Positions 3,897 through 19,721 of a stretch of DNA of 20,927 nt are shown here, piece after piece. Position 1 is the first letter of the stretch. Each line of letters begins with the position of its first letter. The translations under genes and the position numbers were made by a program. Source of the DNA: a virus; IMG/VR virus record IMGVR_UViG_3300021091_002245, positions 1-20,927 of that record; one strand, written 5' to 3'. The notes under the pieces were generated by a model. It was not told the DNA's origin. It was given only the letters and a program-made list of their open reading frames with translations, and did not search any database.

Positions 3897-4199
3897 ATGT
3901 CAAGTAGATATGCATCATCAAAACAATTACAAAATTCAGCAGGAAAACGTAGATTGTCTTCCGTAATAGTTCCTAACATTCCATTGTCACCAAATGATGT
4001 TTATGTGCAAACTACATCTATAGATCGTTTAGACAAATTGGCTAATACATTTTATCAAGATGCAACAATGTGGTGGGTTATAGGTGTAGCAAATGGTTTA
4101 GGAAAAGGCACATTAATTATTCCGCAAAATACTACAATACGGATACCAGATAAAAATATTGTACAACAAGTTATTAATGAAATTAATTTATCGCGATGA
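3897..4199 (+). CDS. Baseplate wedge protein, gp53-like (LysM-like fold)
   Basis: This is a 100-residue protein from the ATG at 3897. The frame is open back to 3828, but the earlier start would overlap the upstream gene by 47 nt. The core matches the LysM-like wedge family represented by T4 gp53: a segment reading DRLDKLANTFYQDATMWWVI, then a conserved Asn, then a Gly-rich turn and IPQNTTIRIP before a short C-terminal helix. In these proteins a short LysM-type domain anchors the wedge in the baseplate rather than binding cell wall as a secreted protein. No signal peptide is present. The stop overlaps the ATG of the next gene in an ATGA arrangement, suggesting translational coupling of baseplate components. 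The family call is fairly secure; exact orthology to gp53 is inferred. Confidence 0.7.
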   Translation: MSSRYASSKQLQNSAGKRRLSSVIVPNIPLSPNDVYVQTTSIDRLDKLANTFYQDATMWWVIGVANGLGKGTLIIPQNTTIRIPDKNIVQQVINEINLSR

Positions 4200-4702
4200 G
4201 CAACATATTTTATTCACAAGTTGACCCCGCAGTTCAATTAGAACTAAATGCTCGAGGTTTATCGGGTCGTAATCGAACAACTCAAGATTTAAATTTTATG
4301 CTTGGCAAAATTGCCAATGTTCAACTAACAGCATATAAATCTGGTTCTGCTGACCCCGGGGCTGTAATTGCTGTATTAGGAGGCGTTGACGTAAGATCTG
4401 GCAGATATCTACCATCGAGTCCAACCAGCTTTACTGTAGTAAGAGCTAACGAGAATCATGAATTCAAGAATTTTGCATCGGGCGACGGCGGCTTTTTAAC
4501 GAATCCTAAATATACAGTTGATGAAATCGAAGATATCGGCAGCACAGCAACATTAAAATCAAAAGAATTAACTGATACATCTAGAAGAATAGGGCCGATT
4601 ATTACTGCAGTAAGTGTTGATATTGGAGACCATTCTATGGGATTATTGAATAAAGCAACGGTTAACATAACAATTCCAAATCCGAGATTTAGATATATTT
4701 GA
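4196..4702 (+). CDS. Baseplate hub-like protein, N-terminal part (frameshifted)
   Basis: The 168-residue ORF starts at an ATG overlapping the gp53-like stop. It encodes the N-terminal part of a longer baseplate protein. The last meaningful segment reads LLNKATVNITIPNPR, after which this frame gives four more residues and a TGA. The expected continuation (DLDIFEDTWLYPGRYVKIDI) is encoded in the +1 frame directly across that stop. The two parts together would make about 800 residues, a plausible size for a hub or gpD/gp27-like tail protein. This piece is therefore either half of a gene broken by a small indel, the product before a ribosomal frameshift, or the result of a base error. It is not a convincing stand-alone protein. 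Confidence 0.65.
   Translation: MSNIFYSQVDPAVQLELNARGLSGRNRTTQDLNFMLGKIANVQLTAYKSGSADPGAVIAVLGGVDVRSGRYLPSSPTSFTVVRANENHEFKNFASGDGGFLTNPKYTVDEIEDIGSTATLKSKELTDTSRRIGPIITAVSVDIGDHSMGLLNKATVNITIPNPRFRYI
4682..4702 (+). other. Frameshift point in the hub-like gene
   Basis: Frame 4196 reads Pro-Arg-Phe-Arg-Tyr-Ile-stop here (TGA at 4700-4702), while the frame of the downstream ORF reads Asp-Leu-Asp-Ile-Phe-Glu-Asp. The local bases are AATCCGAGATTTAGATAT. Loss of one CG from an original CCGCGAGAT would explain it exactly, restoring Asn-Pro-Arg-Asp-Leu-Asp. There is no long homopolymer and no standard -1 slippery heptamer. A +1 slip at ATT-TGA is possible but would lose the DLDIF segment. Confidence 0.7.
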
Positions 4703-6605
4703 AGATACATGGTTATACCCAGGACGCTATGTTAAAATTGATATACAACATCCAAATTCTGCTATAATTACTGGTGCCGATACTAATCTTATTTCTACAT
4801 CATCATTATTTGGATCATTATCAGAAGAAATAATTGACACAAAATTAAATAAATTGTATCCATCTTTAAAAAAAGATTTAACTGCATTTAAACGAGAAAT
4901 ACGTAAATTAAATAAATTTTCATTTCAAGGTTTGATAACATCTTTTGATTTTTCATATACAACAGAAGGATCAGTAGATGTTACAATATCATTAACAGGT
5001 ACCAGTAATACATATACTGACGTAACCATGTTAATGAATCCAGATACTAAAAAAAATGAAACTAAAACTTTTAAAGTTTATGATGCCGTCGCCACCGCTA
5101 GTGTCGCACAATTACAAGAACTAAGTTTAGAAACTGGGTCTGGGTCTACTGAGTTCTATGGACAAATATTCAACAGATTTGAAGAACTATTAAATAAGTT
5201 TAAAACACACAATCAAATAGATCCAAAACAAAATCCTCCGATGCTAATTCCATTTAATATTGTTTCTGGTTTAGAAACTGGTTCTGATCATTTTATGTTA
5301 TATGGTAAACTATATCCAAACATACAAACTCCGCCATTTAAACCTCAAACATTTGTTGCAGATCCATCATCTTCAATTGATATAACAACACAAAGTTCAT
5401 CATTTCAACAACAACAAGAACAGGCTAAATCTACATATAATGCACAATGGGAATCATATGTTGCAACACAAAGATATATAACATTAGGTGCATTAATACA
5501 ATGCGTTAATAATTATATTACACCAAAATTAGAAGGATCTGTAGAACAATATGATATTAAATGTACAGATCTGGTACCGGGAAGTAATTATTATCCACAA
5601 CTTACTTCATGTATTCCTAAAGATATATTGTTACTGCCAAATAATGAAAATTTAAAATCTAATGATGGAGGAATGAGTGTTTATGGAGGTTTAAAAATGT
5701 ATCCGGATGTTTTAAAAACAATGGAAACAAAAAATGTAACTAAATGGCCGGGAATATTTGGAACGCCAAATCAATCTGATTCGACTGTTATTTTTCCTTC
5801 AAGAATTTTTATAAATTTAGAATACATACAAACAGTATTAAATGAATTATCCGCAAAAAATACAAAGCAATTTACATTAGCTTCATTTTTAGCAAATATT
5901 AGTGCTAGAATATCATATGCAACAGGCAACGCAATTATCTTAAAATTAGTAACAGATCCGAATAATCAGCAACAATTACTTTTTAGTGATACAAAATATT
6001 TAAAACCAATTAACACTAAAAATCCAGTAACTGCATATTCAGTTCCAATGTTAGCAAATCATCCAAACGGAACAATTGTTAGAGAATTTACGTTTCAAGC
6101 TAAACTACCTAACAACGTTAAAAATTTGTCATATGTTTTGAATTCGGGAACAGATGTATCTGATGATGAAATTGCACCATATTTAAATTTTATGTATAAT
6201 TCAAAAGATCCTGATTCAATAAATAAAGCTCGAGAAAAATATAAAAACAAATACGAGCAAAACATAAAAAATTTAGATGATGCTAAAATTAGTTATGGAG
6301 AAGTTCCGTTAGTACGAGAAAATACAACAAAATTATACAAAGCATTGATAGAGTATATAAAATTTCCATTTCCAGACATAGAAAAATCCAAACAACTCAC
6401 AGCGCCAATATTTCCATTTGATGTTGAATTTACAATGGATGGCATAAATGGATTACGTTATGGCGACGTTTTAACATTCGCCGGATTACCAGAAAAATAT
6501 AAAAAAAATACAGTATTCAGTGTAATTGGCATTACTCATGATGTAGACACTGATGGCGTATGGACTTCTAAAGTTAAATGTATAATGCGACCGAAATTAG
6601 GATAA
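4686..6605 (+). CDS. Baseplate hub-like protein, C-terminal part (frameshifted)
   Basis: This frame is open from 4671 and becomes protein-like from the GAT at 4686 (DLDIFEDTWLYPGRYVKIDI). There is no ATG, GTG or TTG in frame between 4671 and the TTG at 4854, which has no ribosome site and lies inside the conserved region, so independent initiation is unlikely. The 639 codons end in FPFDVEFTMDGINGLRYGDV, then a segment containing VIGITHDVDTDGVWTSK, then an RPKLG end. This is the kind of C-terminal beta-rich domain I associate with phage baseplate hub proteins (gp27/gpD-like fold). The role would be the central hub joining tail tube and spike. It needs a +1 (or -2) shift to join with the 4196 ORF. 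AGGA close to its end serves the next gene. Confidence 0.6.
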   Translation, partial: DLDIFEDTWLYPGRYVKIDIQHPNSAIITGADTNLISTSSLFGSLSEEIIDTKLNKLYPSLKKDLTAFKREIRKLNKFSFQGLITSFDFSYTTEGSVDVTISLTGTSNTYTDVTMLMNPDTKKNETKTFKVYDAVATASVAQLQELSLETGSGSTEFYGQIFNRFEELLNKFKTHNQIDPKQNPPMLIPFNIVSGLETGSDHFMLYGKLYPNIQTPPFKPQTFVADPSSSIDITTQSSSFQQQQEQAKSTYNAQWESYVATQRYITLGALIQCVNNYITPKLEGSVEQYDIKCTDLVPGSNYYPQLTSCIPKDILLLPNNENLKSNDGGMSVYGGLKMYPDVLKTMETKNVTKWPGIFGTPNQSDSTVIFPSRIFINLEYIQTVLNELSAKNTKQFTLASFLANISARISYATGNAIILKLVTDPNNQQQLLFSDTKYLKPINTKNPVTAYSVPMLANHPNGTIVREFTFQAKLPNNVKNLSYVLNSGTDVSDDEIAPYLNFMYNSKDPDSINKAREKYKNKYEQNIKNLDDAKISYGEVPLVRENTTKLYKALIEYIKFPFPDIEKSKQLTAPIFPFDVEFTMDGINGLRYGDVLTFAGLPEKYKKNTVFSVIGITHDVDTDGVWTSKVKCIMRPKLG

Positions 6606-6607
6606 AA

Positions 6608-7243
6608 ATGTCAAGATTAAAATTATACTATCCCGTTGACGAAATAACTACTAATTTATATACAACTGGTTTGGAATGGATGACTACTGATAACAAAGAA
6701 TATATTGGATCATATCATCTATACACAACCGGCGAAGCATATACACAGCCAAATTGGAATCCTAAAACGTCTTTACAATTAATTCCATATCAAGAAGTTA
6801 CTGTAGAAAATCATAAAAATATTGTTTATCGACAACTAACAAATGATGCATATACAGGAACATATGTTTCACCCAAATCAATTCCAGTACAAATACGTAA
6901 ACAAGATATTATCAACGGATCTATTTCTAGATATTTTTTGAAAAAACATAATGAATCAGCAATTATAGAAACAAATCAATTACAATACAATCAATGGCAA
7001 TCTAATGTTATGGATTCGAAAATATATTCCGCAACATCATTAACATGGTTTATTACTGGAAATATTAATGATGAACAACGAAATGGATATTTAGTAGAAG
7101 GCGTAATTACTAAAAATAAAAAAGAAGTACAACGAGCTGCAACATTTTTACCGGAAATTGTTGGTCATTTAACAAATCTAACTGAATATTATACAGATAA
7201 TATTTTTAATATTGCAACAGACATCAACGGATTGGATTCCTAA
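6608..7243 (+). CDS. Probable virion/baseplate-associated protein, unknown function
   Basis: This is a 211-residue protein. I chose the ATG at 6608, just after the upstream stop and 5 nt behind an AGGA, over the in-frame ATG at 6578 inside the previous gene. I do not recognise a defined domain. The N-terminus (SRLKLYYPVDEITTNLYTTG, then EWMTTDNKEYIGSYHLY and TTGEAYT) has the Tyr/Gly-rich pattern I associate with small structural proteins placed after baseplate genes in marine T4-like phages. There are no cysteines, no signal peptide and no membrane segment. It is the last gene of the structural block before the polymerase gene. A virion role is inferred from position and composition only. Confidence 0.55.
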   Translation: MSRLKLYYPVDEITTNLYTTGLEWMTTDNKEYIGSYHLYTTGEAYTQPNWNPKTSLQLIPYQEVTVENHKNIVYRQLTNDAYTGTYVSPKSIPVQIRKQDIINGSISRYFLKKHNESAIIETNQLQYNQWQSNVMDSKIYSATSLTWFITGNINDEQRNGYLVEGVITKNKKEVQRAATFLPEIVGHLTNLTEYYTDNIFNIATDINGLDS

Positions 7244-7267: not shown

Positions 7268-8590
7268 ATGATAGTGGATACTATAGAAGAGGTTACGCAA
7301 ACGTTACAATATATCAAAGACAGAAAAACTTTGCTAGTACCAGTATACTGTAGTCCCATGAATCATGCAGCAGTTAATCGTTTATGTGCAATCTACATTT
7401 ATACAGAAGATGATGTAGAGCGTATGATTCCTATATATCATACTGAACAACTAAGGGGCTTTCCTGAACATGTAAGTTCTTTTTTAGCATTAGAGAATAT
7501 CTTTGTTCACGACAAGAAGCGATGGCTACAAACGGGAGGTAATGGGTCGGTATGGGATGTAAAAACATTGTGGTGGTATACATACGGCGAAGCATATGAT
7601 GAATCACATTATCCAACTGCAGCTCATCAATTTTATTGGAGACGGCACGCTACATTAGATGCAGTTAATTGTATTATTCCGTTGCAACAACATATGGCAA
7701 TGTGTCAAAAAATACGTTACTATGCTTGGCCAATGTGTGTGAATGCTCAACTATCAGAATCATACCTGCAATTCAATGCAACATATCCAGAAGTATTTGC
7801 ACGTATTGAATCCGCGGGTCTACAAGTTACTGATGATTTTCGTATGCCAGAGTTGATTCATGAAGGTAAGGTATATTCAAACTATCATTATCATACAACA
7901 ACAGGCCGACCAAGCAACGCATTTCGAGGTTTCAACTTTGCTGCAATGAATAAGGATGATGGCACCAGAGCAGCATTTTGTAGTCGCTTTGAACGAGGTG
8001 CATTAGTAGAAATGGACTTTGATTCATATCACGTTCGGCTCATTGCAAAGATGATCGGATATGAATTACCTGCATCATCAATACATGATTATTTAGGTCA
8101 ATTTTATTTTGATGTTGCAAATTTAACTGATACACAACGTGAAGAAAGCAAAGCAATAACATTTCGTTTATTGTACGGAGGTATCGATCGAGAATTCTTA
8201 AGCATACCATTTTTTGCACAAGTAAATGATTTTGTGTATAAAATATGGAATAAATGGAAACGTACGGGTTGCGTAGAAACGCCCGTATTGAAACGCAATA
8301 TCTGCAAGGATGGTATGCAGAATATGACTGCTAATAAATTGTTTAACTATTATTTACAAGCAGTAGAAACCGAAGTATCAGTTCTTAAATTGAAGCAAGT
8401 GCAAGATTTAATTGCACCATATGCAAGTTGCATGATACTTTATACATATGACTCCCTGCTTTTCGATGTAGATTATTCAGAAGCAAAAGAGTTGTTACCA
8501 CAAATCAAACACGTATTAGAACAAGGCAACTTTCCAGTAAAAGTGAAGGTTGGCGATATTTATGATAAAATAAAAACTATTTCTTTATGA
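7268..8590 (+). CDS. polA: DNA polymerase, family A, small phage type
   Basis: The 440-residue protein carries the landmarks of a Pol I-type polymerase in order: TTTGRPSN (residues 210-217), motif A DFDSYHVRLIA (250-260, catalytic D250), the O-helix REESKAITFRLLYGG (291-305, with K295, F299 and Y303 matching E. coli K758, F762 and Y766), and motif C YTYDSLLFDV (392-401, catalytic D395). Two usual residues differ: the motif A Glu (E. coli E710) is His255, and the motif C HDE is YDS. Residues 1-160 look like a shrunken 3'-5' exonuclease fold (HDKK near 81, WDVKTLW near 96) but lack the DxE motif. No 5'-3' exonuclease domain is fused; that activity is encoded at 12090. ATG at 7268 lacks a clear Shine-Dalgarno. 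It would synthesise phage DNA; the divergence makes kinetic properties uncertain. Confidence 0.85.
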   Translation: MIVDTIEEVTQTLQYIKDRKTLLVPVYCSPMNHAAVNRLCAIYIYTEDDVERMIPIYHTEQLRGFPEHVSSFLALENIFVHDKKRWLQTGGNGSVWDVKTLWWYTYGEAYDESHYPTAAHQFYWRRHATLDAVNCIIPLQQHMAMCQKIRYYAWPMCVNAQLSESYLQFNATYPEVFARIESAGLQVTDDFRMPELIHEGKVYSNYHYHTTTGRPSNAFRGFNFAAMNKDDGTRAAFCSRFERGALVEMDFDSYHVRLIAKMIGYELPASSIHDYLGQFYFDVANLTDTQREESKAITFRLLYGGIDREFLSIPFFAQVNDFVYKIWNKWKRTGCVETPVLKRNICKDGMQNMTANKLFNYYLQAVETEVSVLKLKQVQDLIAPYASCMILYTYDSLLFDVDYSEAKELLPQIKHVLEQGNFPVKVKVGDIYDKIKTISL

Positions 8591-9630
8591 CTATAGATTC
8601 AATATTAACAGAATGGTGTTATAGATTACCAAAAGGTTATCCCACCATGGACTCTGATTATCAAATTTTAGATACGATATTATCAGAGATGACTTCATTA
8701 AACTCAACAGAACGAAATAAGATTGTTCGTAAAGCCCGCGGATATAATATTTCGGAATCTATAAATACCAAAACATCTATATTAACGGAAAGTTCTGCAG
8801 ATTATGATGCTGCAATTAAATCGAGATTAGGGTTAGATCCTGAAGCTGAAATACCGCAAGTACAAGGCCATTATAATCTAGATAATGGACCATTAGCATT
8901 AACTTCAAAGGATGCTGAGATATTTAAACAACTTTGGCCTGAAACTATGAATTCTGCTATTATAGGAAAAGGAGAAATTGCATTATATTGGTTATATCAA
9001 TATCAAAATCCAGCAGTAAATACAATTGATAATCGCGGCGACGACCAACCTGATTTAACAATTGATTCTGATAATGTTGAAGTAAAAAGTTATCCATCCC
9101 ATAATGCTAGAATAGGATTAGGCAGATTTCAAAAATTTAAAGAAACTAGACAATTAGTTTCAATTATTTTTGGTATACATACATTAGCTCAAACATTCGG
9201 ATCATCAGATGATTCAAAAAAAGTTTATTCTGATTTAGCCTTTGGTGGTAAAGAATTAGAAGAAGCATTTCGAACATTTATTGCTCTGGATAGATTACCA
9301 TCAAAAATGGAATTAATTGAATCATTTCCTATATTTCGAAATTTATTTTCACAAATTGAGTTAGTTAAACAATCATTAAATTTACGAGATGACACTTATG
9401 AACCTCGAGCTGCAGCTGCTGCATTATTAACGAATATATTACGTGAAAAATTACAAATTAAACCAGGCGATGGCGGATATATAATCAATACTAGTAGTAA
9501 AAATCCAACTGATATATATACATATGAAATTGACTTTGAATCTTTAGATATTGATACAGTACTAGCTAATGTTGTAATCAATGGCGGTACAATTGAAGCA
9601 AACTATAAAAATTTATTCGCCAAGGAGTAA
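8587..9630 (+). CDS. Candidate PD-(D/E)XK nuclease, phage protein
   Basis: This 347-residue protein overlaps the polymerase stop by 4 nt (ATGA), so the two are probably co-translated. Residues 155-167 read PDLTIDSDNVEVK, which fits a PD-(D/E)XK metal site (D156, E165, K167). GKGE with E130 and the following helix could supply the extra acidic residue usual in that fold. The N-terminus contains LTEWCYRLPKGYP, a motif I have the impression of seeing at the start of other phage proteins. The C-terminal half has long helices and a Tyr-rich end. Coupling to the polymerase suggests work on DNA during replication or recombination, for example end processing or Holliday/flap cleavage. The nuclease call is an inference from one motif plus spacing; a non-enzymatic virion or packaging role is not excluded. 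Confidence 0.5.
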   Translation: MTIDSILTEWCYRLPKGYPTMDSDYQILDTILSEMTSLNSTERNKIVRKARGYNISESINTKTSILTESSADYDAAIKSRLGLDPEAEIPQVQGHYNLDNGPLALTSKDAEIFKQLWPETMNSAIIGKGEIALYWLYQYQNPAVNTIDNRGDDQPDLTIDSDNVEVKSYPSHNARIGLGRFQKFKETRQLVSIIFGIHTLAQTFGSSDDSKKVYSDLAFGGKELEEAFRTFIALDRLPSKMELIESFPIFRNLFSQIELVKQSLNLRDDTYEPRAAAAALLTNILREKLQIKPGDGGYIINTSSKNPTDIYTYEIDFESLDIDTVLANVVINGGTIEANYKNLFAKE

Positions 9631-9634
9631 CAAC

Positions 9635-10021
9635 TTGAAAACACAACTGCTTTGCACATTCGCACATAGATCAGATTTAAACATAGTAACGGAATATATA
9701 CAGCAAAGTTATATTATACCAGAACGTCGGATATTTGTATTTGCTAATGCAGAATCCGCAGATAATTTATATTGCACATACAATGCAGATGCTGGCACTC
9801 AAAGAGGACAGAATACAATTAGCATTCATCGCAAAAAGGAAACTAATACATTATATACAGTTAATGCACTTAATGAAGTTATCAGAGCCGTAAATAATGG
9901 CGTATTAGACAAAACGTTTCAACTTGATTGGAGCATATATCAAAATTCATTTATACTTACAGATGATGCAGGCTTCCGAGTTATCGACCTTGTGTTTTTC
10001 AAGAAACTTTCTTGGAACTAA
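9635..10021 (+). CDS. Conserved-looking phage protein of unknown function, TTG start
   Basis: I place the start at the TTG at 9635, which has AAGGAG at 9622-9627 with 7 nt spacing. The in-frame ATG at 9581 has no ribosome site and would overlap the upstream gene by 50 nt. The product is 128 residues. It has an alpha/beta look, with a central segment TISIHRKKETNTLYTVNALN and the C-terminal segment LDWSIYQNSFILTDDAGFRV. I believe related sequences occur in T4-like marine phages, but I know no function. It has one cysteine pair (LLCTF and LYCTY), not in a redox spacing. It lies between the polymerase/nuclease pair and the SSB gene, so a replication-linked role is possible. Confidence 0.6.
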   Translation: MKTQLLCTFAHRSDLNIVTEYIQQSYIIPERRIFVFANAESADNLYCTYNADAGTQRGQNTISIHRKKETNTLYTVNALNEVIRAVNNGVLDKTFQLDWSIYQNSFILTDDAGFRVIDLVFFKKLSWN

Positions 10022-10142: not shown

Positions 10143-10913
10143 ATGGCACTTAACCTTGACGCTATCAAAGCAAAACTTAATCAATTAAACAAAACCGATG
10201 ACAAAAAAAGCAACATCTGGAAGCCTGAATCTGGCAAGACACGTGTTCGCATCGTCCCTTACATTCATCGCAAAGAAAATCCATTTCTAGAATTGTATTT
10301 CCATTATGACATTGGTAAAAAAACCATGTTGTCACCCATCACATTCGGAAATGCAGATCCAATTGTAGAGTTTGCTGAAAAACTTAAAAAGACCGGAGAC
10401 AAAGAAGATTGGCTCATGGGTCGTAAAATTGAACCAAAAATGAGAACTTATGTTCCTGTTATCGTTCGTGGTAAAGAATCTGAAGGAGTTAAATTCTGGG
10501 GCTTTGGTAAAACCATTTATACGGAATTGCTTTCTATTATTGCAGATGCTGATTATGGTGATATTACCGACTTAATGAATGGTCGTGATATTGATGTAGA
10601 ATTTACGCCGGCAGAGGGTACGGGTTCATATCCTAAGACAGCAATTCGTGTTAAACCAAATACGCAACCTGCTACAGAAGATAAAGAAGTTGCTCAGAAG
10701 ATTATGAATCAACCACAAATCACTGATTTATTTCCAGAGCCGACATTTGATGAATTGCAAGAAGCATTAGAAGAATGGATGAATCCAGAAAATGCAGATT
10801 CAGATGTTGAATCAGATAAAGAAGAATCAGCTCCTACAGCACCAGCATCAAGCAAACCAGCAGCAACTAAAGTTGAAAACGTTGCAGATGCATTCAATGA
10901 TCTATTCAAATAA
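10143..10913 (+). CDS. Single-stranded DNA-binding protein, T4 gp32-like
   Basis: The 256-residue protein starts at an ATG with AAAGGAG at 10131-10137. The N-terminus (ALNLDAIKAKLNQL) resembles the helical cooperativity segment of gp32-type SSBs. The core has SGKTRVRIVPY, FLELYFHYDIG and VKFWGFGKTIYTELL, aromatic- and basic-rich strands typical of the OB fold. Residues about 215-256 form an acidic Glu/Asp/Ser and Ala/Pro-rich linker ending DAFNDLFK, equivalent to the partner-binding tail. Unlike T4 gp32 there is not one cysteine, so the zinc site is absent. It coats ssDNA and should work with the RecA and helicase encoded just downstream. A gap of 13 nt with AAGGAG leads into recA. Confidence 0.85.
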   Translation: MALNLDAIKAKLNQLNKTDDKKSNIWKPESGKTRVRIVPYIHRKENPFLELYFHYDIGKKTMLSPITFGNADPIVEFAEKLKKTGDKEDWLMGRKIEPKMRTYVPVIVRGKESEGVKFWGFGKTIYTELLSIIADADYGDITDLMNGRDIDVEFTPAEGTGSYPKTAIRVKPNTQPATEDKEVAQKIMNQPQITDLFPEPTFDELQEALEEWMNPENADSDVESDKEESAPTAPASSKPAATKVENVADAFNDLFK

Positions 10914-10926
10914 CAAGGAGTTATAA

Positions 10927-12090
10927 ATGGCAAAGAGTAAAAGTAAACTGGAACTAGAAGACAGTCTAGCAAATACATTAGCAGATAGTATCAACAAGCA
11001 ATTTAAAGGACAAAATCTTAAGACTGCGTTTTTTTTAGATGGCGATGAAGATTCTCCAAGCAATGTATCAGAATGGATTTCTTCAGGATGCTCGATGCTT
11101 GATTTAGCAATTTCAAACCGGCCTTATGGAGGATTTCCTGTAGGCCGGATTACTGAAATTACCGGATTAGAAGCATCTGGTAAATCATTATTAGCAGCAC
11201 ACACTTTAGCAGAAACACAAAAGAAGGGTGGATTAGCTGTTTATATTGATACCGAATCTGCTACGAGTGCTGAATTCTTAACGGCTATTGGTGTTGATTT
11301 GAAAACAATGCTATATGTACCATTAGAAACAATTGAAGAAATTTTTGAAACAATTGAAACAATTGTAGAAGGCGTTCGCAAATCAGATAAAGATCGTTTA
11401 GTTACAATTGTTGTAGACTCAATTATGGGTGCATCTACAAAAATTGAAATGTCAGCTGAATATGATAAAGATGGTTATGCAACTTCAAAGTCAATCATCT
11501 TGTCGAAAGCAATGCGTAAAGTAACTAATTGGATTGCACGTGAGCGTATTTGTCTTATCTTTACAAATCAGTTACGTACTAAATTAGGCGTATCATTTGG
11601 AGACCAATGGACAACTGCGGGTGGCAAGGCAATTCCATTCCACGCATCAGTTCGACTTCGACTTAAAAATACAGGTATGATCAAAGCTAAAGTATCTGGC
11701 GTTGAACAAGTTGTAGGTAGCAAAACAAATGTACAGGTAGTTAAGAATCGTATGGGTCCGCCGCATCGCAAAGTAGATTATGAAATTTACTATGATAGTG
11801 GTATTGACAATTATGGTGGTTGGTTATCTATCATGAAAAATTTTGATTTAGTCAAACAATCAGGTGCATGGTATACATTAGAAGATGTTGATCATGAAAC
11901 GGGTGAAACGTTTGGCGAATTAAAATTCCAAAGCAAAGATTTTGTAGAAAAGGTTATTAATAACCCAGAAGCAAAAGATAGGTTATATAGAAGAATCTGC
12001 GATGCTTATATATTCAAATATCAAGCTGGTGTTGATGGTGGTATTGATGATGTAATAATCACAGACGAATTCATTGACGAAGAAGGATAA
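10927..12090 (+). CDS. RecA/UvsX-family recombinase
   Basis: The 387-residue protein starts at an ATG with AAGGAG at 10915-10920. Walker A is GLEASGKS (80-87, K86). YIDTES places the catalytic glutamate at E110. Walker B is LVTIVVDS with D164. The segment TNQLRTKLGVSFGDQWTTAG followed by GKAIPFHASVRLRL matches the RecA L1/L2 region and the strand after it. The C-terminus is acidic (DDVIITDEFIDEEG). It forms ATP-dependent filaments on ssDNA and drives strand exchange and recombination-dependent replication, probably with the SSB upstream. Motif spacing is closer to bacterial RecA than to T4 UvsX, so I leave the symbol blank. The stop overlaps the exonuclease ATG by 1 nt. Confidence 0.92.
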   Translation: MAKSKSKLELEDSLANTLADSINKQFKGQNLKTAFFLDGDEDSPSNVSEWISSGCSMLDLAISNRPYGGFPVGRITEITGLEASGKSLLAAHTLAETQKKGGLAVYIDTESATSAEFLTAIGVDLKTMLYVPLETIEEIFETIETIVEGVRKSDKDRLVTIVVDSIMGASTKIEMSAEYDKDGYATSKSIILSKAMRKVTNWIARERICLIFTNQLRTKLGVSFGDQWTTAGGKAIPFHASVRLRLKNTGMIKAKVSGVEQVVGSKTNVQVVKNRMGPPHRKVDYEIYYDSGIDNYGGWLSIMKNFDLVKQSGAWYTLEDVDHETGETFGELKFQSKDFVEKVINNPEAKDRLYRRICDAYIFKYQAGVDGGIDDVIITDEFIDEEG

Positions 12091-13142
12091 TGAATAAGTA
12101 TCAAAGATTATTTAAAGAGTTACAACAAGAAAGAACTTCAAGCCCGTCGGATGTAAATGATCATTTCATGGTATTCGACGGCTTGAATACTTTCATTCGT
12201 AGCTTTGGCGCTACTCCTGCTTACAATGAAGATGGAGATCATATTGGCGGTATTACTGGATTTCTATATTCAATAGGTAAGACAGTTCGAGATTTTAAAC
12301 CAACCCGATGTATCATTGTATTTGATGGTAGAGGTGGTTCCGCTAAACGTAAAAAGATTTACGGCGATTACAAAGCTAATCGAGCAAATAAAACAAAACT
12401 TCGTCGTCATGATCATCATAATTTAACTATTGAAGATGAACAAGAATCAATGCGTCATCAATTTAGCAGATTGGTTTCATATCTAGATAATTTGCCAGTT
12501 ACATTCATGGCAATAGATGGCATTGAAGCAGATGATGCAATTGCGTATATTGCACAAATGTATGAAGATACTTGCAAAAAGATTACTATTGTTTCTACGG
12601 ATAAAGATTTCTACCAATTGGTAGATGATCGAATTCAAGTTTGGTCGCCCATTAAAAAGAAAATGTATGATGTAGAAGCAGTTCATAAAGAATTCGGAGT
12701 GCATCCTAATAACATGGTTATTTATAGATCGTTTACAGGCGATGCTTCTGATAATATTCCGGGCGTTAATGGAATAGGACCAAAAACTATTTTAAAATTG
12801 ATTCCTGAATTAGCACAACCCGCAGAATATTCAGTTGATGCATTATTAGATAAAAGTCGAAACAATCTTAAAGAATCTAAATCATATCAAAAGATTCTAG
12901 ATAATGCTCGAATTATTGAGCAAAATTATCAACTCATGAATATCAAATTATTAGATATTCCAGCCCCGGCGGCAAGTAAGATTCGTGGTATTATGGAACA
13001 ACCAATACCGCAATTAAATAGGCCAGAATTTCAAAGATTATTTTATGAAGATAAGATGTGGGCTATCATGAAGAATTTACCGGATTGGTTGAATAATACA
13101 TGGTTATCTTTGAATGCGTTTGCAAAACAAACACATAAATGA
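12090..13142 (+). CDS. 5'-3' exonuclease / flap endonuclease
   Basis: The 350-residue protein has all motifs of the Pol I N-terminal/T4 RNase H family: FDGLN (D30), VFDGRGGSAKRKKIYGDYKA (D79 and the basic arch), GIEADDAIAYI (E146, D148, D149), STDKDFYQLV (D171, D173), and the helix-three-turn region GDASDNIPGVNGIGPKT (D218, D221). The expected metal-binding acidic residues are all present, so it should be active. It removes RNA primers and 5' flaps during lagging-strand synthesis, the job fused to polymerase in bacterial Pol I but separate here, matching the polymerase at 7268. The C-terminal 100 residues are family-variable. It starts in a TAATG overlap with recA. Confidence 0.92.
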   Translation: MNKYQRLFKELQQERTSSPSDVNDHFMVFDGLNTFIRSFGATPAYNEDGDHIGGITGFLYSIGKTVRDFKPTRCIIVFDGRGGSAKRKKIYGDYKANRANKTKLRRHDHHNLTIEDEQESMRHQFSRLVSYLDNLPVTFMAIDGIEADDAIAYIAQMYEDTCKKITIVSTDKDFYQLVDDRIQVWSPIKKKMYDVEAVHKEFGVHPNNMVIYRSFTGDASDNIPGVNGIGPKTILKLIPELAQPAEYSVDALLDKSRNNLKESKSYQKILDNARIIEQNYQLMNIKLLDIPAPAASKIRGIMEQPIPQLNRPEFQRLFYEDKMWAIMKNLPDWLNNTWLSLNAFAKQTHK

Positions 13143-13177: not shown

Positions 13178-14533
13178 ATGACAGATAAATTAAGTGAATA
13201 CGGATTTGGATTTCAAGTCAAAGTCATAGCAGCATTATTTACGGATAGAATATTTTTACAACAAATTGCAGATATTATTCAACCCGATTATTTTGAATCT
13301 GAATCAAATAGTTGGTTACTTGAAGTTATATTAGAACACTTTCGACAATACAAAGCGCCGCCTACTAAAGATGTACTTAAGGTAAAGGTTACGGAGATTG
13401 AGAATGACATTCTTAAAACTTCGGTATTAGAACAATTAAAAGAAGTATTCCGATACATGGAATCGGATGATCTTTCTTTTGTAAAAGATGAGATTCTAAA
13501 GTTTTGTAAGAATCAAGAAATCAAACGAGCTATCATGGATTCAGTTACCTTGCTTAAAATGGGTAACTATGATGAAATTAAATCTAAAATGGATAGTGCC
13601 ATGAAAGCTGGTGCTGACACAAACATTGGATTAGATTATATCAATGATGTAGCATCTCGTTACAATGAAGCAGCTCGACATACAATTACAACTGGTTGGG
13701 ATGTTATTGATGATTTAATGGATGGAGGATTAGCTCCGGGCGAATTAGGCGTTGTAATGGCTCCTGCAGGTATTGGTAAATCATGGATGCTTATTAATAT
13801 TGGTGCAAATGCAGTGAAAGCAGGCAAAACGGTTATACATTATACATTGGAGCTTAATGAAAACTATGTAGGACAACGTTATGATTCTGTATTAACTGGT
13901 ATTAACGCACAAACTCTAAAACATCATCAAGCCACTGTCGAGGAAAAGATGCGTTCTTTAACGGGTAATTTGATTGTTAAATATTATCCAACTAAATCAG
14001 TTGGCGCAATGGCACTCAAAGCTCATGTTGAAAAAACCATAATGCAAGGCAAAACACCAGATCTTATTATTGTAGATTATGGCGATCTTTTAAAGGTAAA
14101 TACTAAGAAAGACAAACACGAAGCATTAGAAGATTTATATGAAGAACTTCGTGGTATGGCTGGCGAATATAAAATTCCAGTATGGACTGCATCTCAAGCA
14201 GGACGTAGTGCGTTGGAAGAAGATGTTATTGAAGCAGATAAGATTGCATCTTCATACGGTAAAGTGATGGTTGCTGATTTCTTGATGTCACTTTCACGCA
14301 AAGTAGAAGATAAGATGTCAGGTACGGGTAGAGGTCATGTTATTAAGAATCGATTCGGTCCGGATGGTATAACATTACCAAGCAAGATTAACACAAATAA
14401 TGGTCAATTTCAATTTTTTGAACCGCAGACAACTCAAGGCAAACAAACTACTCAAACAATGAAAACGGGTGAGAATTTAATGAAGAAAAATTTAGCACAA
14501 AAGTTCAAAGATTTGGGTGGACAATTTGGATAA
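13178..14533 (+). CDS. Replicative DNA helicase, DnaB/gp41-like
   Basis: The 451-residue protein has an N-terminal helical domain (1-150, with PDYFESESNSWLLEVILEHF as in DnaB-type N-domains) followed by a RecA-like motor domain. Walker A is APAGIGKS (195-202, K201), the catalytic glutamate is in HYTLELNE (E226), Walker B is DLIIVDYGDLL (D300), and the sensor segment is PVWTASQAGRS. The late NRFGPDGI motif matches the arginine-finger region of this family. It would form a hexamer that unwinds the fork on the lagging strand. No fused or adjacent primase is seen in this window. The C-terminal tail is Gln/Lys-rich. An intrinsic terminator follows 24 nt after the stop, so this is probably the end of a transcription unit. 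Confidence 0.9.
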   Translation: MTDKLSEYGFGFQVKVIAALFTDRIFLQQIADIIQPDYFESESNSWLLEVILEHFRQYKAPPTKDVLKVKVTEIENDILKTSVLEQLKEVFRYMESDDLSFVKDEILKFCKNQEIKRAIMDSVTLLKMGNYDEIKSKMDSAMKAGADTNIGLDYINDVASRYNEAARHTITTGWDVIDDLMDGGLAPGELGVVMAPAGIGKSWMLINIGANAVKAGKTVIHYTLELNENYVGQRYDSVLTGINAQTLKHHQATVEEKMRSLTGNLIVKYYPTKSVGAMALKAHVEKTIMQGKTPDLIIVDYGDLLKVNTKKDKHEALEDLYEELRGMAGEYKIPVWTASQAGRSALEEDVIEADKIASSYGKVMVADFLMSLSRKVEDKMSGTGRGHVIKNRFGPDGITLPSKINTNNGQFQFFEPQTTQGKQTTQTMKTGENLMKKNLAQKFKDLGGQFG

Positions 14534-14625: not shown

Positions 14626-15621
14626 ATGCCAAAACTTTTTGAGAATCGAATCCCGTTTAAGCCATTTGAATATCCAGAATATTACAATGAAGGATGGCTA
14701 AAACAAGCACAAGCATTTTGGTTGCATACAGAAATTCCAATGCAAGGAGACATTAAAGATTGGAATGAAAATTTACAACTACATGAAAAAAATCTAGTAG
14801 GAAATATTCTTTTAGGTTTTGCCCAAACTGAATGTGCAGTATCAGATTATTGGACTACCATGGTTACGAAATGGTTTCCTAAACATGAAATCAAACAAAT
14901 GGCAATGATCTTTGGTTCTCAAGAAACAATTCACGCAACGGCATATTCATATCTAAATGAAACTTTAGGATTGGAAGATTTTGAAGCATTTCTACATGAG
15001 CCATCAATTGCTGAAAAATTTGAATTCTTAACATCAACTACTGCAGATTGGACTCACGAAGATTTAGCTACTAATCCAATGGCACGAGAAGAAGTAGCTC
15101 GTTCATTAGCAATCTTTTCTGCATTTGCTGAAGGCGTATCACTCTACTCATCATTTGCAGTATTATATTCATTTCAAATGCGAAACATGTTAAAAGGCAT
15201 CGGACAACAAATGAAATGGTCTGTACGTGATGAATCTTTACACTCAAAAATGGGTTGTCAACTATTTCGTCATATGTGCGAAGAATATCCAGAACTCAAA
15301 GATGCGGTTCAATCAGATGTAGAAGAAGCTGCAACGTTGATGGCACAAATGGAAGAGCAATTTATTGATAAAATGTTTGAACAAGGCAATTTAGAAAATC
15401 TTAAAAAGGAAGATTTAAAAAACTTTATCAGAAAAAGAGCCAATGAAAAATTACATGAGCTTGGATATCAATCTATTTTTAATTATAATGTAAAATCAGC
15501 GGAAGAGTTAGATTGGTTTTATCACTTAACCGGCGGACATACGCATACAGATTTTTTTGCAGTACGTCCAACTGATTATTCAAAAGCAAATGAAGGCGAA
15601 GATTGGTCTGATTTATGGTAA
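14626..15621 (+). CDS. nrdB: Class I ribonucleotide reductase, beta (radical) subunit
   Basis: The 331-residue protein starts at an ATG with AAAGGA at 14615-14620. The diiron ligands can all be placed by spacing: E69, then E100-T-I-H103, then E169, then E203-S-L-H206. The gaps of 31 and 34 residues equal those of E. coli NrdB. Y107 lies four residues after H103, the position of the tyrosyl radical, so this looks like a tyrosyl-radical enzyme. The C-terminus ends GEDWSDLW, an aromatic/acidic tail of the type that docks in the alpha subunit. It makes the radical used by NrdA to turn ribonucleotides into dNTPs for phage DNA. It is the first gene after the terminator and overlaps nrdA by 7 nt. 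Confidence 0.95.
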   Translation: MPKLFENRIPFKPFEYPEYYNEGWLKQAQAFWLHTEIPMQGDIKDWNENLQLHEKNLVGNILLGFAQTECAVSDYWTTMVTKWFPKHEIKQMAMIFGSQETIHATAYSYLNETLGLEDFEAFLHEPSIAEKFEFLTSTTADWTHEDLATNPMAREEVARSLAIFSAFAEGVSLYSSFAVLYSFQMRNMLKGIGQQMKWSVRDESLHSKMGCQLFRHMCEEYPELKDAVQSDVEEAATLMAQMEEQFIDKMFEQGNLENLKKEDLKNFIRKRANEKLHELGYQSIFNYNVKSAEELDWFYHLTGGHTHTDFFAVRPTDYSKANEGEDWSDLW

Positions 15622-17423
15622 CGAAAAAAGAAAAAACAATGAAAAGTTTCGGTGAAGAATTAGGATGGGAATTAGGAGTAGATTATCCAGAGTGGGGTAA
15701 TACCGAAATATACGTTAAAACAATATCAAAAGGATATTTGTTAGAAGGCGAAACTCCTAAAGATGCATATTGGCGAGTTTCAACAGCAGTAGCCCGTCGT
15801 TTAGGCAAACCATCATTAGCATCCAAGTTCTTTGATTATATCTGGAGAGGTTGGCTTAATTTAGCAACACCAGTATTATCCAACACGGGTACAGATCGAG
15901 GTTTGCCAATTTCATGTTTTGGTATTGATGTAGCAGATTCAATTCAAGACATTGGCGGTAAAAACTTAGAAATGATGCTTCTTGCTAAACATGGAGGTGG
16001 CGTCGGTATTGGAATGAACATGATTCGTCCTGCAGGTAGCAAAATATCACAAAACGGTACATCGGATGGAGTTGTTCCTTTTGCAAAGATTTATGATTCA
16101 ACTATTTTAGCAACAAACCAAGGATCGGTTCGTAGAGGTGCAGCATCAGTTAACTTGAATATTGATCATCTAGACTTCGAAGATTGGTTGGAAATTCGCG
16201 AGCCAAAAGGCGATGTGAATCGTCAATGTTTAAATATGCATCAATGTGTAGTTGTTTCTGATAAATTTATGCGTAAATTGGAAGAAGGCAATGAAGATGC
16301 TCGTCGCAAATGGGGTAAAGTACTTCAAAAGCGTAAAGCAACTGGCGAACCATATATCATGTTTAAAGGCAATGTTAATAAACAAAATCCAGATGCATAT
16401 AAAACAAATGGTTTAAAAGTATTTATGACGAATATTTGCAGTGAAATTACATTGCATACTGATGAATCACATTCATTTGTTTGTTGTTTGTCTTCTTTGA
16501 ACTTAGCAAAATATGATGAATGGAAAGATACCGACCTAATCTACACAGCCACCTGGTTTTTAGACGGTGTCTTAGAAGAATTTATTCAAAGGGCTAAGAA
16601 TATGCGAGGCTTTGAAAACTCTGTTAGAAGTGCGGAAAAGGGTCGTGCTTTAGGTTTAGGAGTTTTAGGTTGGCATACTTATTTACAACAAAAAGGTATA
16701 GCATTCGAAGGATTACCGGCACAATTTGAAACACGTAAAATCTTTTCTCAAATTAAAATTGAATCAGAACGAGCTTCACGTGACTTAGCAAATGAATATG
16801 GCGAACCACTTTGGTGTGCAGGAACAGGAATGCGTAATACTCACTTAAGAGCAATTGCTCCAACCGTTTCAAATTCAAAACTATCAGGTAATGTATCTGC
16901 TGGAATTGAACCATGGGCAGCAAATGTATTTACAGAACAAACTTCTAAAGGTACTTTTATTCGTAAAAATCGAGAATTAGAAAAAGCACTTAGAAAAATT
17001 GGAATCAATAATAAAGAAACTTGGGATAAGATTTTAACAGATGGTGGTTCTGTACAAGATATATCAGAATTAGATGATTGGGGCTTTATTTCCGGAAAAT
17101 TGATGCATCGCAATGAAATGCCAGAGATTGCTTTTACTAATAAAGAAATTGATTGGGCAAAAGATGTATTTAAAACATTCAAAGAAATCAATCAATTAGA
17201 ACTAGTTAAACAAGCAGGCCTTCGTCAACAATATGTAGATCAAGCAGTGTCACTTAATTTAGCATTTCCGTCACAAGCATCTCCAAAATGGATCAATCAA
17301 ATTCATATTGAAGCTTGGAAACAAGGAATCAAAACACTTTATTATATGCGTACTGAATCAGTTCTTCGCGGGGACATCGCAATGCGTGCAACAGATCCGG
17401 ACTGTTTAAGCTGTGATGGATAG
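15615..17423 (+). CDS. nrdA: Class I ribonucleotide reductase, alpha (catalytic) subunit
   Basis: The 602-residue protein has the key residues: C101 (PISCFG), the NICSE triad N273/C275/E277, C290/C291 as the redox partner of C101, the radical-transfer tyrosine pair Y576-Y577 (KTLYYMRT), and the phosphate-binding loop PTVSNSKLSGNVSAGIEP. The C-terminal CLSC (C597, C600) is the shuttle that is re-reduced by thioredoxin or glutaredoxin. The N-terminus enters the helical domain within about 10 residues, so the roughly 90-residue ATP-cone is absent and dATP shut-off through it is not expected. The start at 15615 overlaps nrdB; the ATG at 15639 is an alternative. The phage thioredoxin at 20122 is a candidate reductant. 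Confidence 0.95.
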   Translation: MVTKKEKTMKSFGEELGWELGVDYPEWGNTEIYVKTISKGYLLEGETPKDAYWRVSTAVARRLGKPSLASKFFDYIWRGWLNLATPVLSNTGTDRGLPISCFGIDVADSIQDIGGKNLEMMLLAKHGGGVGIGMNMIRPAGSKISQNGTSDGVVPFAKIYDSTILATNQGSVRRGAASVNLNIDHLDFEDWLEIREPKGDVNRQCLNMHQCVVVSDKFMRKLEEGNEDARRKWGKVLQKRKATGEPYIMFKGNVNKQNPDAYKTNGLKVFMTNICSEITLHTDESHSFVCCLSSLNLAKYDEWKDTDLIYTATWFLDGVLEEFIQRAKNMRGFENSVRSAEKGRALGLGVLGWHTYLQQKGIAFEGLPAQFETRKIFSQIKIESERASRDLANEYGEPLWCAGTGMRNTHLRAIAPTVSNSKLSGNVSAGIEPWAANVFTEQTSKGTFIRKNRELEKALRKIGINNKETWDKILTDGGSVQDISELDDWGFISGKLMHRNEMPEIAFTNKEIDWAKDVFKTFKEINQLELVKQAGLRQQYVDQAVSLNLAFPSQASPKWINQIHIEAWKQGIKTLYYMRTESVLRGDIAMRATDPDCLSCDG

Positions 17424-17473: not shown

Positions 17474-18136
17474 ATGAAAACAGATGAACAATTAGGATTA
17501 CAAGTAAAACAATTTTTAATTGATAAAGGTGTAGAAACACCAATGGTAGATAACGGATTAACCGATTTAGAAAAAATTGCAGAAATTAAAGATAAATTTA
17601 CTGACATTATGAATGCTTTGGGTTTAGATTTACGAGATGACAGTTTAATCGATACTCCGAGTCGTGTTGCAAAAATGTATGTAAATGAAATCTTCTTTGG
17701 GTTAGATTATAAACATTTTCCAAAAGCAACTACGGTTGATAATAAGATGAAATATGATGAAATGGTTATTGAGCGTAATATCAATGTTCAATCAAATTGC
17801 GAACATCATTTTGTTATCATTGACGGTTCATGCCATATTAGTTATATACCTAAAAATAAAGTATTAGGATTAAGTAAATTAAATAGAATAGTTCAGTTCT
17901 TTTCTAAAAGACCACAAATACAAGAAAGATTAACCGAACAAATTTATTATGCTTTAAGTTATATTTTAGAAACAGAGGATATTGGCATAATTATAGAAGC
18001 AACACATTATTGTGTAAAATCGCGAGGAATACAAGATGTTAATTCTGATACGGTAACAAGCAAAATGGGAGGATGTTTTAAAACAGATCCCGAAGCACGT
18101 AAAGAGTTTTTATCAATTATTAACAAACAAAAATAA
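17474..18136 (+). CDS. folE: GTP cyclohydrolase I
   Basis: The 220-residue protein has the family signatures in order: DTPSRVAKMY (60-69), SNCEHHF (107-113), GLSKLNRIVQFFSKRPQIQE (132-151) followed by RLTEQI, and THYCVKSRG (177-185). Zinc ligands C109, H112 and C180 and the catalytic histidines H111 and H178 are present, so the enzyme should be active. It converts GTP to dihydroneopterin triphosphate, the shared precursor of folate and 7-deazaguanines. Its queD- and queE-like neighbours point to the 7-deazaguanine route. The stop overlaps the next ATG by 1 nt. Confidence 0.95.
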   Translation: MKTDEQLGLQVKQFLIDKGVETPMVDNGLTDLEKIAEIKDKFTDIMNALGLDLRDDSLIDTPSRVAKMYVNEIFFGLDYKHFPKATTVDNKMKYDEMVIERNINVQSNCEHHFVIIDGSCHISYIPKNKVLGLSKLNRIVQFFSKRPQIQERLTEQIYYALSYILETEDIGIIIEATHYCVKSRGIQDVNSDTVTSKMGGCFKTDPEARKEFLSIINKQK

Positions 18137-18603
18137 TGGCACGTTACATTTCAACTAAATTATATGATGGGTACTCAGCATGTTTCCGTCAATGGAAAGC
18201 AGATGGCACACATTGTAAATACCTACATGGCTATGCAATTTCATTCCGAGTATGGTTTGAAGGTGAACTAGATGAACGCAATTGGGTATGGGATTTCGGC
18301 GGTATGAAAAGAGCTAACTCTACCATCTTAGGTATGTCACCAAAAGAATACTTTGCTTGGTTGCTAGATCACACAACTATTGTAGCTGAAGATGATCCAT
18401 ACTTACAAAAATTTATACAAATGGACAAAGATGGAATCATACAACTTAGAGTATTACCAGCAACTGGCTGTGAGAGATTTGCAGAGTTTTTATTTGAAAT
18501 AATCAATGCATTCCTCAAGGAAGAAACTGAAGGAAGAGTTAAAGCTACAAAAGTAGAAGTATACGAACACGAACGAAATTCAGCAAGTTATGAACAATAT
18601 TAA
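18136..18603 (+). CDS. queD: QueD-like 6-carboxytetrahydropterin synthase homologue
   Basis: The 155-residue protein is of the 6-pyruvoyl/6-carboxy-tetrahydropterin synthase family. Aligned by eye with E. coli QueD, it keeps the catalytic cysteine (C27 in GTHCKYLHGY), the Asp-His pair (D78-H79 in LLDHT) and the late glutamate (E144 in VYEHE). VWDFGGMK corresponds to the conserved DF-x-x-LK segment. Two of the three zinc histidines are replaced: the AAH histidine by F17 and the second HGH histidine by Y33, leaving H31. H26 might substitute. It should turn dihydroneopterin triphosphate into 6-carboxytetrahydropterin if the metal site is rebuilt; otherwise a related pterin reaction is possible. 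It overlaps folE by 1 nt. Confidence 0.8.
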   Translation: MARYISTKLYDGYSACFRQWKADGTHCKYLHGYAISFRVWFEGELDERNWVWDFGGMKRANSTILGMSPKEYFAWLLDHTTIVAEDDPYLQKFIQMDKDGIIQLRVLPATGCERFAEFLFEIINAFLKEETEGRVKATKVEVYEHERNSASYEQY

Positions 18604-18937
18604 TGAAATGTATGTATCAATTTACGAGTATACAGGTAAATCTGCTACACTTAATAATGTAGGTCGCGAAATAATGGATGCTGCCTTAAAAGAAGGCATC
18701 AAAATTGTTTGGCGTGATTTACCTCCGGACATGAGTCGCGAAAATTTTTCTCGAGTTGCAACATATCCTAGATCATTTCTAAATAAATATTTTGGCAATG
18801 ATGTTAAGTATACAATGATAGATCCAGTAACTTTGAACGCATTGTTTGATAAACTAACTGCATTAGAAGAAAAATTTAACGAACTAATAAAAAAATTAGA
18901 TCATGTCGATGCCAATGATGATGAATTACCTTTTTAA
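18590..18937 (+). CDS. Small protein with SSB-like acidic C-terminal tail
   Basis: The product is up to 115 residues, from an ATG overlapping queD by 14 nt; the ATG at 18608 (6 residues shorter) is an alternative. I do not recognise the family. Residues 7-70 have a beta-alpha pattern, and ATYPRSFLNKYFG may be a thioredoxin-fold-like cis-Pro segment, but there is no CxxC. Residues 80-105 look like a coiled-coil helix (LNALFDKLTALEEKFNELIK). The end, DANDDELPF, strongly resembles the DDDIPF tip that bacterial SSB proteins use to bind replication and repair partners. It lies between the queD and queE homologues, so a link to base modification or to recruiting host SSB-binding proteins is possible. 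Confidence 0.65.
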   Translation: MNNINEMYVSIYEYTGKSATLNNVGREIMDAALKEGIKIVWRDLPPDMSRENFSRVATYPRSFLNKYFGNDVKYTMIDPVTLNALFDKLTALEEKFNELIKKLDHVDANDDELPF

Positions 18938-18944
18938 TCCTATT

Positions 18945-19721
18945 ATGAAACCAGGAAGAATTACAGATTACACAAAAACATTACCAATAGTAGAATTGTA
19001 TCGTTGCGTACAATCCGAAGGCAGTCGGTTTGGCCGACCTACTATTGCAGTTAGAACTACAGGTTGCACGCATCGTTGCTATTTTGGCGAGGGTGGGTGG
19101 TGCGACTCATGGTATACAAGTATACATCCTGAAAAAGGCACCTTTTGTTTTAATGACATCATTAAGATTTATGATGAGAATCCACATATTACGGAAATGA
19201 TGTTAACAGGCGGGTCTCCAACCATGCACCCTGCATTAGTAAATGAATTAACACATTTCGCTCATGAAAGAGGTATTCTTATCACAATTGAGACTGAAGG
19301 ATCTCATTTTATTGAGACTGATTATCCAATTGGACTTATTAGCCTTAGTCCTAAGTTTAGCAATAGTATCCCAGTTGTAGGTGTTGCAACTCCACAAGGT
19401 ACTATTACAGATGAAAAAATGGTTAAACAGCATAACAAGTTCAGATTAAACACGGAAGCTATTAAGCAAATGATATCATTTCATGCCGATTACCATTATA
19501 AACCAGTTTGGGATGGCACTGCATATAATTTAGAAGAAATTGAAGAATTTAGGGTATTGTTTAACATTCCTAAAAATAAGACATATATTATGCCCGCAGG
19601 TGATACGCGTGACGAGCTTATTAAAATGTACCCTATCGTATTCGAAATGTGTGCTGAAAAAGGCTATAACATGACTGGTCGCGATCACATAATAAGTTAT
19701 AATACAAAAAGAGGAGTATAA
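18945..19721 (+). CDS. queE: QueE-like radical SAM protein (7-carboxy-7-deazaguanine synthase)
   Basis: I chose the ATG at 18945 (258 residues), 7 nt after the previous stop. Earlier in-frame ATGs (18903-18921) lie inside that gene and none has a ribosome site. PIVELYRCVQSEGSRFGRPT followed by IAVRTTGC matches the QueE entry segment. The cluster cysteines are C41, C45 and C53 (TGCTHRCYFGEGGWCDSWYT), a CX3CX7C spacing with five extra residues compared with the usual CX3CX2C. The SAM-contact motif is LTGGSP instead of LTGGEP. LSPKFSNS matches the LSPK segment. QueE turns 6-carboxytetrahydropterin into 7-carboxy-7-deazaguanine. Together with folE and queD it completes the route to that base. A tiny gene follows with a strong GAGGAG. 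Confidence 0.82.
   Translation: MKPGRITDYTKTLPIVELYRCVQSEGSRFGRPTIAVRTTGCTHRCYFGEGGWCDSWYTSIHPEKGTFCFNDIIKIYDENPHITEMMLTGGSPTMHPALVNELTHFAHERGILITIETEGSHFIETDYPIGLISLSPKFSNSIPVVGVATPQGTITDEKMVKQHNKFRLNTEAIKQMISFHADYHYKPVWDGTAYNLEEIEEFRVLFNIPKNKTYIMPAGDTRDELIKMYPIVFEMCAEKGYNMTGRDHIISYNTKRGV

Follow-up and report, generated by a model that had tools for sequence, protein, structure and literature searches.

The 20,927-nt stretch of viral DNA analysed here, hereafter the window, encodes a reduced family A DNA polymerase in which histidine occupies the position of the steric-gate glutamate of E. coli Pol I. Judged by the aligned sequences, this histidine gate is real, extends across the clade and is under functional constraint; the enzyme that carries it is of a known kind, the phage polymerase group divPolA1. 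The gene and the motif are located as follows.

7268..8590, + strand: reduced family A DNA polymerase, divPolA1-type (Pfam, profile alignment, AF2 model, homology to immuto35A_1)
8015..8038, + strand: motif A codons, DFDSYHVR, with the His255 codon at 8030-8032 (calculated as 7268 + 3 x (n - 1); profile alignment)

The open reading frame at 7268-8590 (+) comprises 440 codons from ATG to stop, and the one reverse-strand frame translated over this interval was full of stops. The product matched Pfam DNA_pol_A (PF00476) at 43.2 bits against a cut-off of 34.3, and PHROG 17, 'DNA polymerase', was a second profile match. A search of solved structures by sequence returned weak matches to Klenow only (E 0.014), and immuto35A_1, from Flavobacterium phage immuto, was found to be homologous at 30% identity. 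The key residues were R214, D250, H255 (gate), K295, F299, Y303, Q364 and Y394-D395-S396. The family A features D250, D395, K295, F299 and Y303 were present, as was the Pol I fold with the exception of the thumb; the usual glutamate at the steric gate, taken as non-defining, was absent. The product is assigned to family A as a divergent member.

To place the histidine, E. coli Pol I was aligned to a 58-member family profile (E 2.9e-10) without manual placement. DFDSYHVR stood opposite E. coli DYSQIELR, so that D250 corresponded to D705 and H255 to E710. The sequence-only reading had put His255 at the glutamate gate position of Pol I, and because the profile alignment paired the same residues, its placement of the motifs was right. 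His255 is most likely a steric gate, as read from this alignment and by analogy with family C polymerases.

It had also been asked whether the histidine is conserved in the clade. This was the case in all 231 family rows that covered the position, among the matches listed. In an alignment of the window with 152 loci, histidine was found in 151 of the 151 rows covering the column among the matches listed, and two of the 153 rows were gapped; other polymerases (L085-L087 and L089) and two loci below the cut-off (L088 and L090) had been left out. The patterns of the first two locus searches contained motif A with histidine. Because part of the earlier loci had been found by these motif-containing patterns, a search with the C-terminal part only, whose patterns lacked motif A, was added, and histidine was present in 80 of its 80 rows (best 80 of at least 504 confirmed stretches). 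The locus samples were the best 80 of 192, the best 80 of at least 594 and the best 80 of at least 504 confirmed stretches. The window was counted once among the 231 rows, L001 (the window itself) having been dropped as a locus before the count. Among the matches listed, these rows contained 215 different sequences, which fell into 83 clusters at 75% identity and into 20 at 50%; the histidine codon in the family was CAT 124 times and CAC 106 times.

In the far branch, motif A was mostly of the DISAYHPTL type, compared with DFDSYHVR in the window, with the histidine kept. Proline followed the gate histidine in 78 of 80 far-search rows (best 80 of at least 504). This His-Pro resembles family B motif A, in which the gate tyrosine is followed by proline.

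In control family A polymerases, the alignment count gave glutamate at the gate in 149 of 149 rows, of which 76 resembled the second polymerase of immuto, 41 resembled that of Roseobacter phage CRP-3, and the other 32 came from bacterial genomes. Twelve of 161 control loci without an ORF of at least 300 residues reaching E 1e-20 were left out, among them L457, which has glutamate. L457 (G011:C33:866-1519) is a different short family A frame of 424 aa, comparable to divPolA1 in size and in the short stretch ahead of motif A; it has the gate motif DYSSLEPR and motif C LHDA, matched the divPolA1 profile weakly (18.1 bits) and lies in the same bacterial metagenome bin, G011, as the divPolA1 locus L154. 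Since it is short and has retained glutamate, a reduced polymerase does not need histidine.

The other motifs were also as the sequence-only reading had described them. Its altered motif C, TYDS for HDE, was recovered in the profile alignment, where YDS stood opposite HDE (Y394 for H881, D395 for D882 and S396 for E883). The catalytic pair D250 and D395 and the O-helix Lys, Phe and Tyr, which it had called intact, were aligned with their E. coli counterparts, KAITFRLLY standing opposite KAINFGLIY (K295 for K758, F299 for F762 and Y303 for Y766), and were conserved across the family. Family members spanning 27-100% identity had little or no variation at either catalytic aspartate or at the equivalents of Lys758, Tyr766 and Arg668. 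In two alignments of the matches listed, F299 was kept in all 151 rows of the first and in 78 of the 80 rows of the second, and position 394 was tyrosine in all 150 rows and in 78 of 80, respectively. The Arg754 position (R291) was variable, with arginine in 80 of 150 and 4 of 80 family rows among the matches listed and tyrosine in nearly all of the remainder. Motif C was HDQ in the 76 controls like the second immuto polymerase and HDE in the 32 bacterial ones; in the CRP-3-like controls it was HDS in 37 of 41, HDE in 3 and a gap in 1. Because serine for Glu883 is common in the CRP-3-like clade, the loss of this glutamate is not special. Tyrosine at the His881 position was found in none of the 149 control polymerases.

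The AF2 model of the window polymerase, built with 58 sequences, had a pLDDT of 93.8, and 409 of its 440 residues were aligned with Bacillus Pol I (3hpo; Z 28.4, rmsd 3.3). The thumb span from Gly184 to Arg214 was 30 residues compared with 124 in E. coli, and the 184-206 stretch measured 12-32 residues in all 228 family rows measured (matches listed). The Lys-to-Asp stretch, which includes the fingers, was 100 residues compared with 124 in E. coli. These lengths show the thumb, as aligned, to be mostly lost in divPolA1. The E. coli exonuclease motif DTETD fell opposite VYCSP, in a part where the N-terminal alignment is weak, and proofreading has probably been lost in the window polymerase. The sequence-only reading had included neither the incomplete thumb and the probable loss of proofreading nor the other replicase carried by most relatives. 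Thumb loss, together with the absence of the Arg754 equivalent from roughly two thirds of the family rows, could make synthesis very weak.

With E. coli Pol I Klenow, the window polymerase thus has in common the fold, motifs A, B and C, the aspartate pair and the Lys758, Phe762 and Tyr766 equivalents. It differs in having His for Glu710 and Tyr-Asp-Ser for His881-Asp-Glu883, a thumb stretch shorter by 94 residues and no recognisable proofreading motif.

The name divPolA1 was given, in the text of Yutin et al. 2024 (PMC11348598), to proteins from 14 phages including immuto. The group is described there as having a truncated thumb, an inactivated exonuclease and conserved palm residues, and as accompanying a regular DNA polymerase in a replication gene context, with a role in replication. 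The window polymerase is assigned to divPolA1. As far as the text of that paper goes, it has in common with the immuto member homology, a truncated thumb, palm residues and replication genes downstream, which were indeed present in the window; it differs in belonging to another branch. The words 'steric', 'motif A', 'ribonucleotide', 'SSB' and 'UvsX' do not occur in the text of PMC11348598, apart from figures and supplements. Since its figures mark motifs A, B and C with alignments, the gate residue may be visible there. In the literature search, divPolA1 was found only in Yutin et al. 2024 and its preprint, and no paper on a phage family A polymerase with a histidine steric gate in motif A was found. 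The gate histidine and the linkage to the small protein p149 appear to be undescribed within the searched literature; other gate residues may have been mentioned earlier.

The genes around the polymerase were found to form a conserved set.

6578..7243, + strand: p207 family, usually directly upstream of the polymerase (62/85 loci)
8587..9630, + strand: p347, variable slot between the polymerase and p149 (locus comparison)
9581..10021, + strand: p149, 146 aa, conserved close partner of the polymerase (locus counts; AF2 model)
10143..10913, + strand: gp32-like single-stranded DNA-binding protein (Pfam gp32, 51.2 bits; PHROG 1192)
10927..12090, + strand: RecA/UvsX recombinase (Pfam RecA, 182 bits)
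12090..13142, + strand: 5'-3' exonuclease like the N-terminal 5' nuclease domain of Pol I (Pfam 5_3_exonuc_N, 116.6 bits)
13178..14533, + strand: DnaB/gp41-like replicative helicase (Pfam DnaB_C, 66.2 bits)

The polymerase gene stands first in an operon, and the order polymerase, variable or absent slot gene, p149, SSB, RecA/UvsX, 5' nuclease and helicase was conserved in relatives. The NCBIfam pola match of the 5' nuclease was limited to profile positions 2-254 of 890. Neither p207 (6578..7243) nor p347 had a Pfam or PHROG match, and the eight slot-gene representatives from relatives had no Pfam match above the cut-off. These slot genes (L137, L127, L150, L123, L144, L125, L141 and L119) encode about 350-825 aa and fall into several clusters. 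The slot resembles an insertion site, its content differing between phages and being absent in many.

The p149 family, of about 150 residues, carries the motif HRKKETNTLYTxNALN (HRKK-TNTLYTINALN) and had no Pfam or PHROG match. Among the matches listed, 95 of the 96 loci that were seeded with the polymerase and had at least 3 kb of flank carried p149 downstream, and the polymerase was present in 33 of 33 p149-seeded loci with at least 3 kb upstream, or 27 of 27 after removal of the six that repeated DNA of polymerase-seeded loci. With 2 kb of flank, linkage held for 107 of 109 loci seeded with the polymerase and for 38 of 39 seeded with p149 (matches listed). Thirteen of 80 p149 matches were themselves polymerase-seeded loci and were left out of the p149-seeded count. 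When 84 loci thinned at 75% identity were combined with the window, p149 was found in 79 of 85 (matches listed); in five of the six others the sequence ends less than 1 kb from the polymerase, and the sixth is L158. In these 79 loci p149 was always on the polymerase strand; it was the next gene in 41, separated by one gene in 31 and by more in 7, and no fused polymerase-p149 frame was found among them. In named phages, p149 occurred in the same six records that matched the polymerase over at least 80% of its length, two of which are the same phage. Both genes were also present in LR756508.1 (L082, 484 kb), a huge phage, in which family B matches lie about 18-25 kb further on.

The AF2 model of p149 had a pLDDT of 89.3. 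Comparison of its fold with the PDB gave no convincing match (best Foldseek E 0.11; best VIA Z 6.3 over 62 residues). The candidate identity of p149 as T4 RegA was rejected, as comparison with the one T4 protein used gave no match. A tentative and rather doubtful proposal is a polymerase made of two parts, divPolA1 and p149, in which p149 would take over from the missing thumb in gripping DNA or in processivity, and the invariant His-Tyr pair would represent a previously undescribed family A gate chemistry, possibly with altered sugar selection. Because p149 is a very consistent partner of a thumbless polymerase, the function of divPolA1 can be tested directly.

Other replication enzymes of the relatives were then considered. 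A second replicase of family B was found in 13 of 17 records and a full family A polymerase in one, immuto, whose full-length enzyme has a normal gate motif, DYTSLE. No second replicase was found in 3 of 17 records, contigs that may be fragments, and none was seen in the window, a 20.9-kb fragment. Family C polymerase was found in none of the seven records searched; these did not include G007, in which, as in two others, no second polymerase was found. The family B frame was short in two far-branch contigs (G072:C1:55978-56703, 587 aa; G074:C1:46559-47233, 559 aa), perhaps because the gene is split; elsewhere the frames were 834-859 aa, except in LR756508 (1022 and 625). A DnaG-like primase was present in all three genomes examined, in immuto, where it is annotated, and in two relatives.

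A role of divPolA1 as the phage replicase was set aside in view of the family B (13/17) or full family A (1/17) enzyme of the relatives, as was a role as primase, suggested by the altered gate, given the DnaG-like primase of immuto and two relatives. Since the relatives have another replicase and a DnaG-like primase, divPolA1 is unlikely to be the main replicase and need not be the primase.

The reading that we somewhat favour is that divPolA1, with Pol I-like palm and fingers and a degenerate exonuclease fold, has a role in repair or gap synthesis beside the main replicase. The repair role is inferred from gene context. The genome would be copied by a gp43-like family B enzyme or, in immuto, by the full-length Pol I. 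The divPolA1 protein, presumably catalytically active and distributive and acting without proofreading, would carry out short DNA synthesis within the recombination/replication operon, perhaps with the assistance of p149. It may fill gaps left by the neighbouring 5' nuclease; alternatively, it may act on DNA coated with SSB or RecA, in repair or lesion synthesis. His255 would replace Glu710 as a bulky gate beside the invariant Tyr303, and since such a gate stands next to Tyr303, dNTPs are probably still preferred. Widespread phages that form a clade with His kept in place of Glu offer a natural system in which to test how a polymerase may rebuild its sugar selection.

The alternative that bears most directly on the gate is relaxed or inverted sugar selection, in which His255 and Tyr303 would admit ribonucleotides and the enzyme would make RNA or mixed primers or act as an RNA polymerase. 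In T7 RNA polymerase a His-Tyr pair reads the 2'-OH. The excluding glutamate was absent from all sampled family rows (matches listed); a passage of PMC12529929 identifies this residue as the gate of family A polymerases and reports that an apicoplast enzyme of this family accepts GTP once the residue is replaced by alanine. However, the Phe762 equivalent is retained (F299, in the row counts given above for the matches listed), and the three genomes examined have a DnaG-like primase.

Histidine is bulky, and a histidine also serves as the presumptive gate of Pol III alpha, a family C enzyme whose fold is unrelated to that of family A. According to a passage of PMC8485763, the presumptive steric gate of E. 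coli Pol III alpha, identified by structural modelling, is H760, a residue invariant in Pol III alpha. The two enzymes have this presumptive histidine gate in common; in Pol III, which is a main replicase, it is located in the fingers and not in motif A. Since histidine is the presumptive gate in what is described of Pol III, loose sugar selection is not a necessary consequence, and a working but rebuilt gate is expected. Relaxed selection was kept as a rival reading, but an unlikely one.

Within the text of Yutin et al. (PMC11348598), the idea of an RNA polymerase was raised for divPolA2 and not for divPolA1. The divPolA2 of barbaviruses is described there as a second family A-like polymerase that lacks the usual thumb and accompanies a family B replicase; unlike divPolA1, it has a variable gene neighbourhood. 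The divPolA1 profile gave no significant match to one divPolA2 protein (AUR84708; hhalign probability 0.2). By eye, the motif A of this one protein, DFKAFE, has glutamate at an equivalent-looking position, so that the two groups differ, a point against relaxed selection in divPolA1.

It is less probable still that divPolA1 is a retired polymerase that performs no synthesis in vivo and serves as a structural, primer-binding or regulatory subunit. The missing thumb, the probable loss of proofreading and the regular replicase of most relatives are consistent with this. However, a non-catalytic protein would not need the invariant or near-invariant catalytic aspartates or the equivalents of Lys758, Tyr766 and Arg668.

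The sequence-only reading had linked the changed gate to 7-deazaguanine genes, three of which lie within the window.

17474..18136, + strand: FolE (NCBIfam NF006824, over cut-off)
18136..18603, + strand: QueD-like protein of the PTPS family (Pfam PTPS over cut-off; NCBIfam QueD below cut-off)
18903..19721, + strand: QueE-like radical SAM protein (NCBIfam QueE models, all below cut-off)

The QueE-like protein (18903..19721) had no Pfam match and was 66% identical to the immuto protein annotated as QueE. QueE was found in 11 of 14 records carrying divPolA1 and was missing from three, including Microcystis phage Mel-JY01, which was deposited as complete. Of the two genes sought as marks of a preQ0-type DNA modification system, QueC and DpdA, each was present in 1 of 11 relatives' records, with the immuto protein as the sole query for DpdA. 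With QueE usual among the relatives and QueC and DpdA found only in immuto, the 7-deazaguanine route appears incomplete.

A gate tuned to modified dGTP, that is, to 7-deazaguanine nucleotides made through FolE, QueD and QueE, would agree with the presence of these genes in the window and of QueE in most records, and polymerase use of such nucleotides is a possibility in a passage of Hutinet et al. 2019 (PMC6884629), where it is proposed for Campylobacter phages. However, the gate senses the sugar, whereas 7-deazaguanine changes sit on the base, and most of the genome is probably copied by the second polymerase. Histidine was equally present in records without QueE (3/14) and without QueC and DpdA (10/11). 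Because it is present where QueE, QueC or DpdA was not found, it does not track the 7-deazaguanine genes; the proposed link was not upheld, and we regard this explanation as highly improbable. An origin of His255 in a sequencing, frame or alignment artefact is refuted by its presence in 231 of 231 rows (matches listed) from 83 clusters at 75% identity, by the use of both CAT and CAC and by a profile alignment made without manual placement.

Several further observations concern the genomic surroundings. In the window, the helicase gene is followed by NrdB and NrdA, a class I-type ribonucleotide reductase (14626-17423). In G001, G008 and Mel-JY01 this place is taken by another kind of reductase gene, which is B12-type-like (L174:14084-15940). 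A baseplate-region gene is split in the window (4196-4702 and 4854-6605) and is a single ORF in G008 (744 aa) and G001 (668 aa), which points to a break, an insertion or an assembly error. Eight contigs with divPolA1 (L152-L159) were found in bacterial or archaeal metagenome bins, one of them Nitrosopelagicus. Phage operon genes surrounded the polymerase in six of the seven of these contigs that were laid out, and they are probably phage contigs within the bins.
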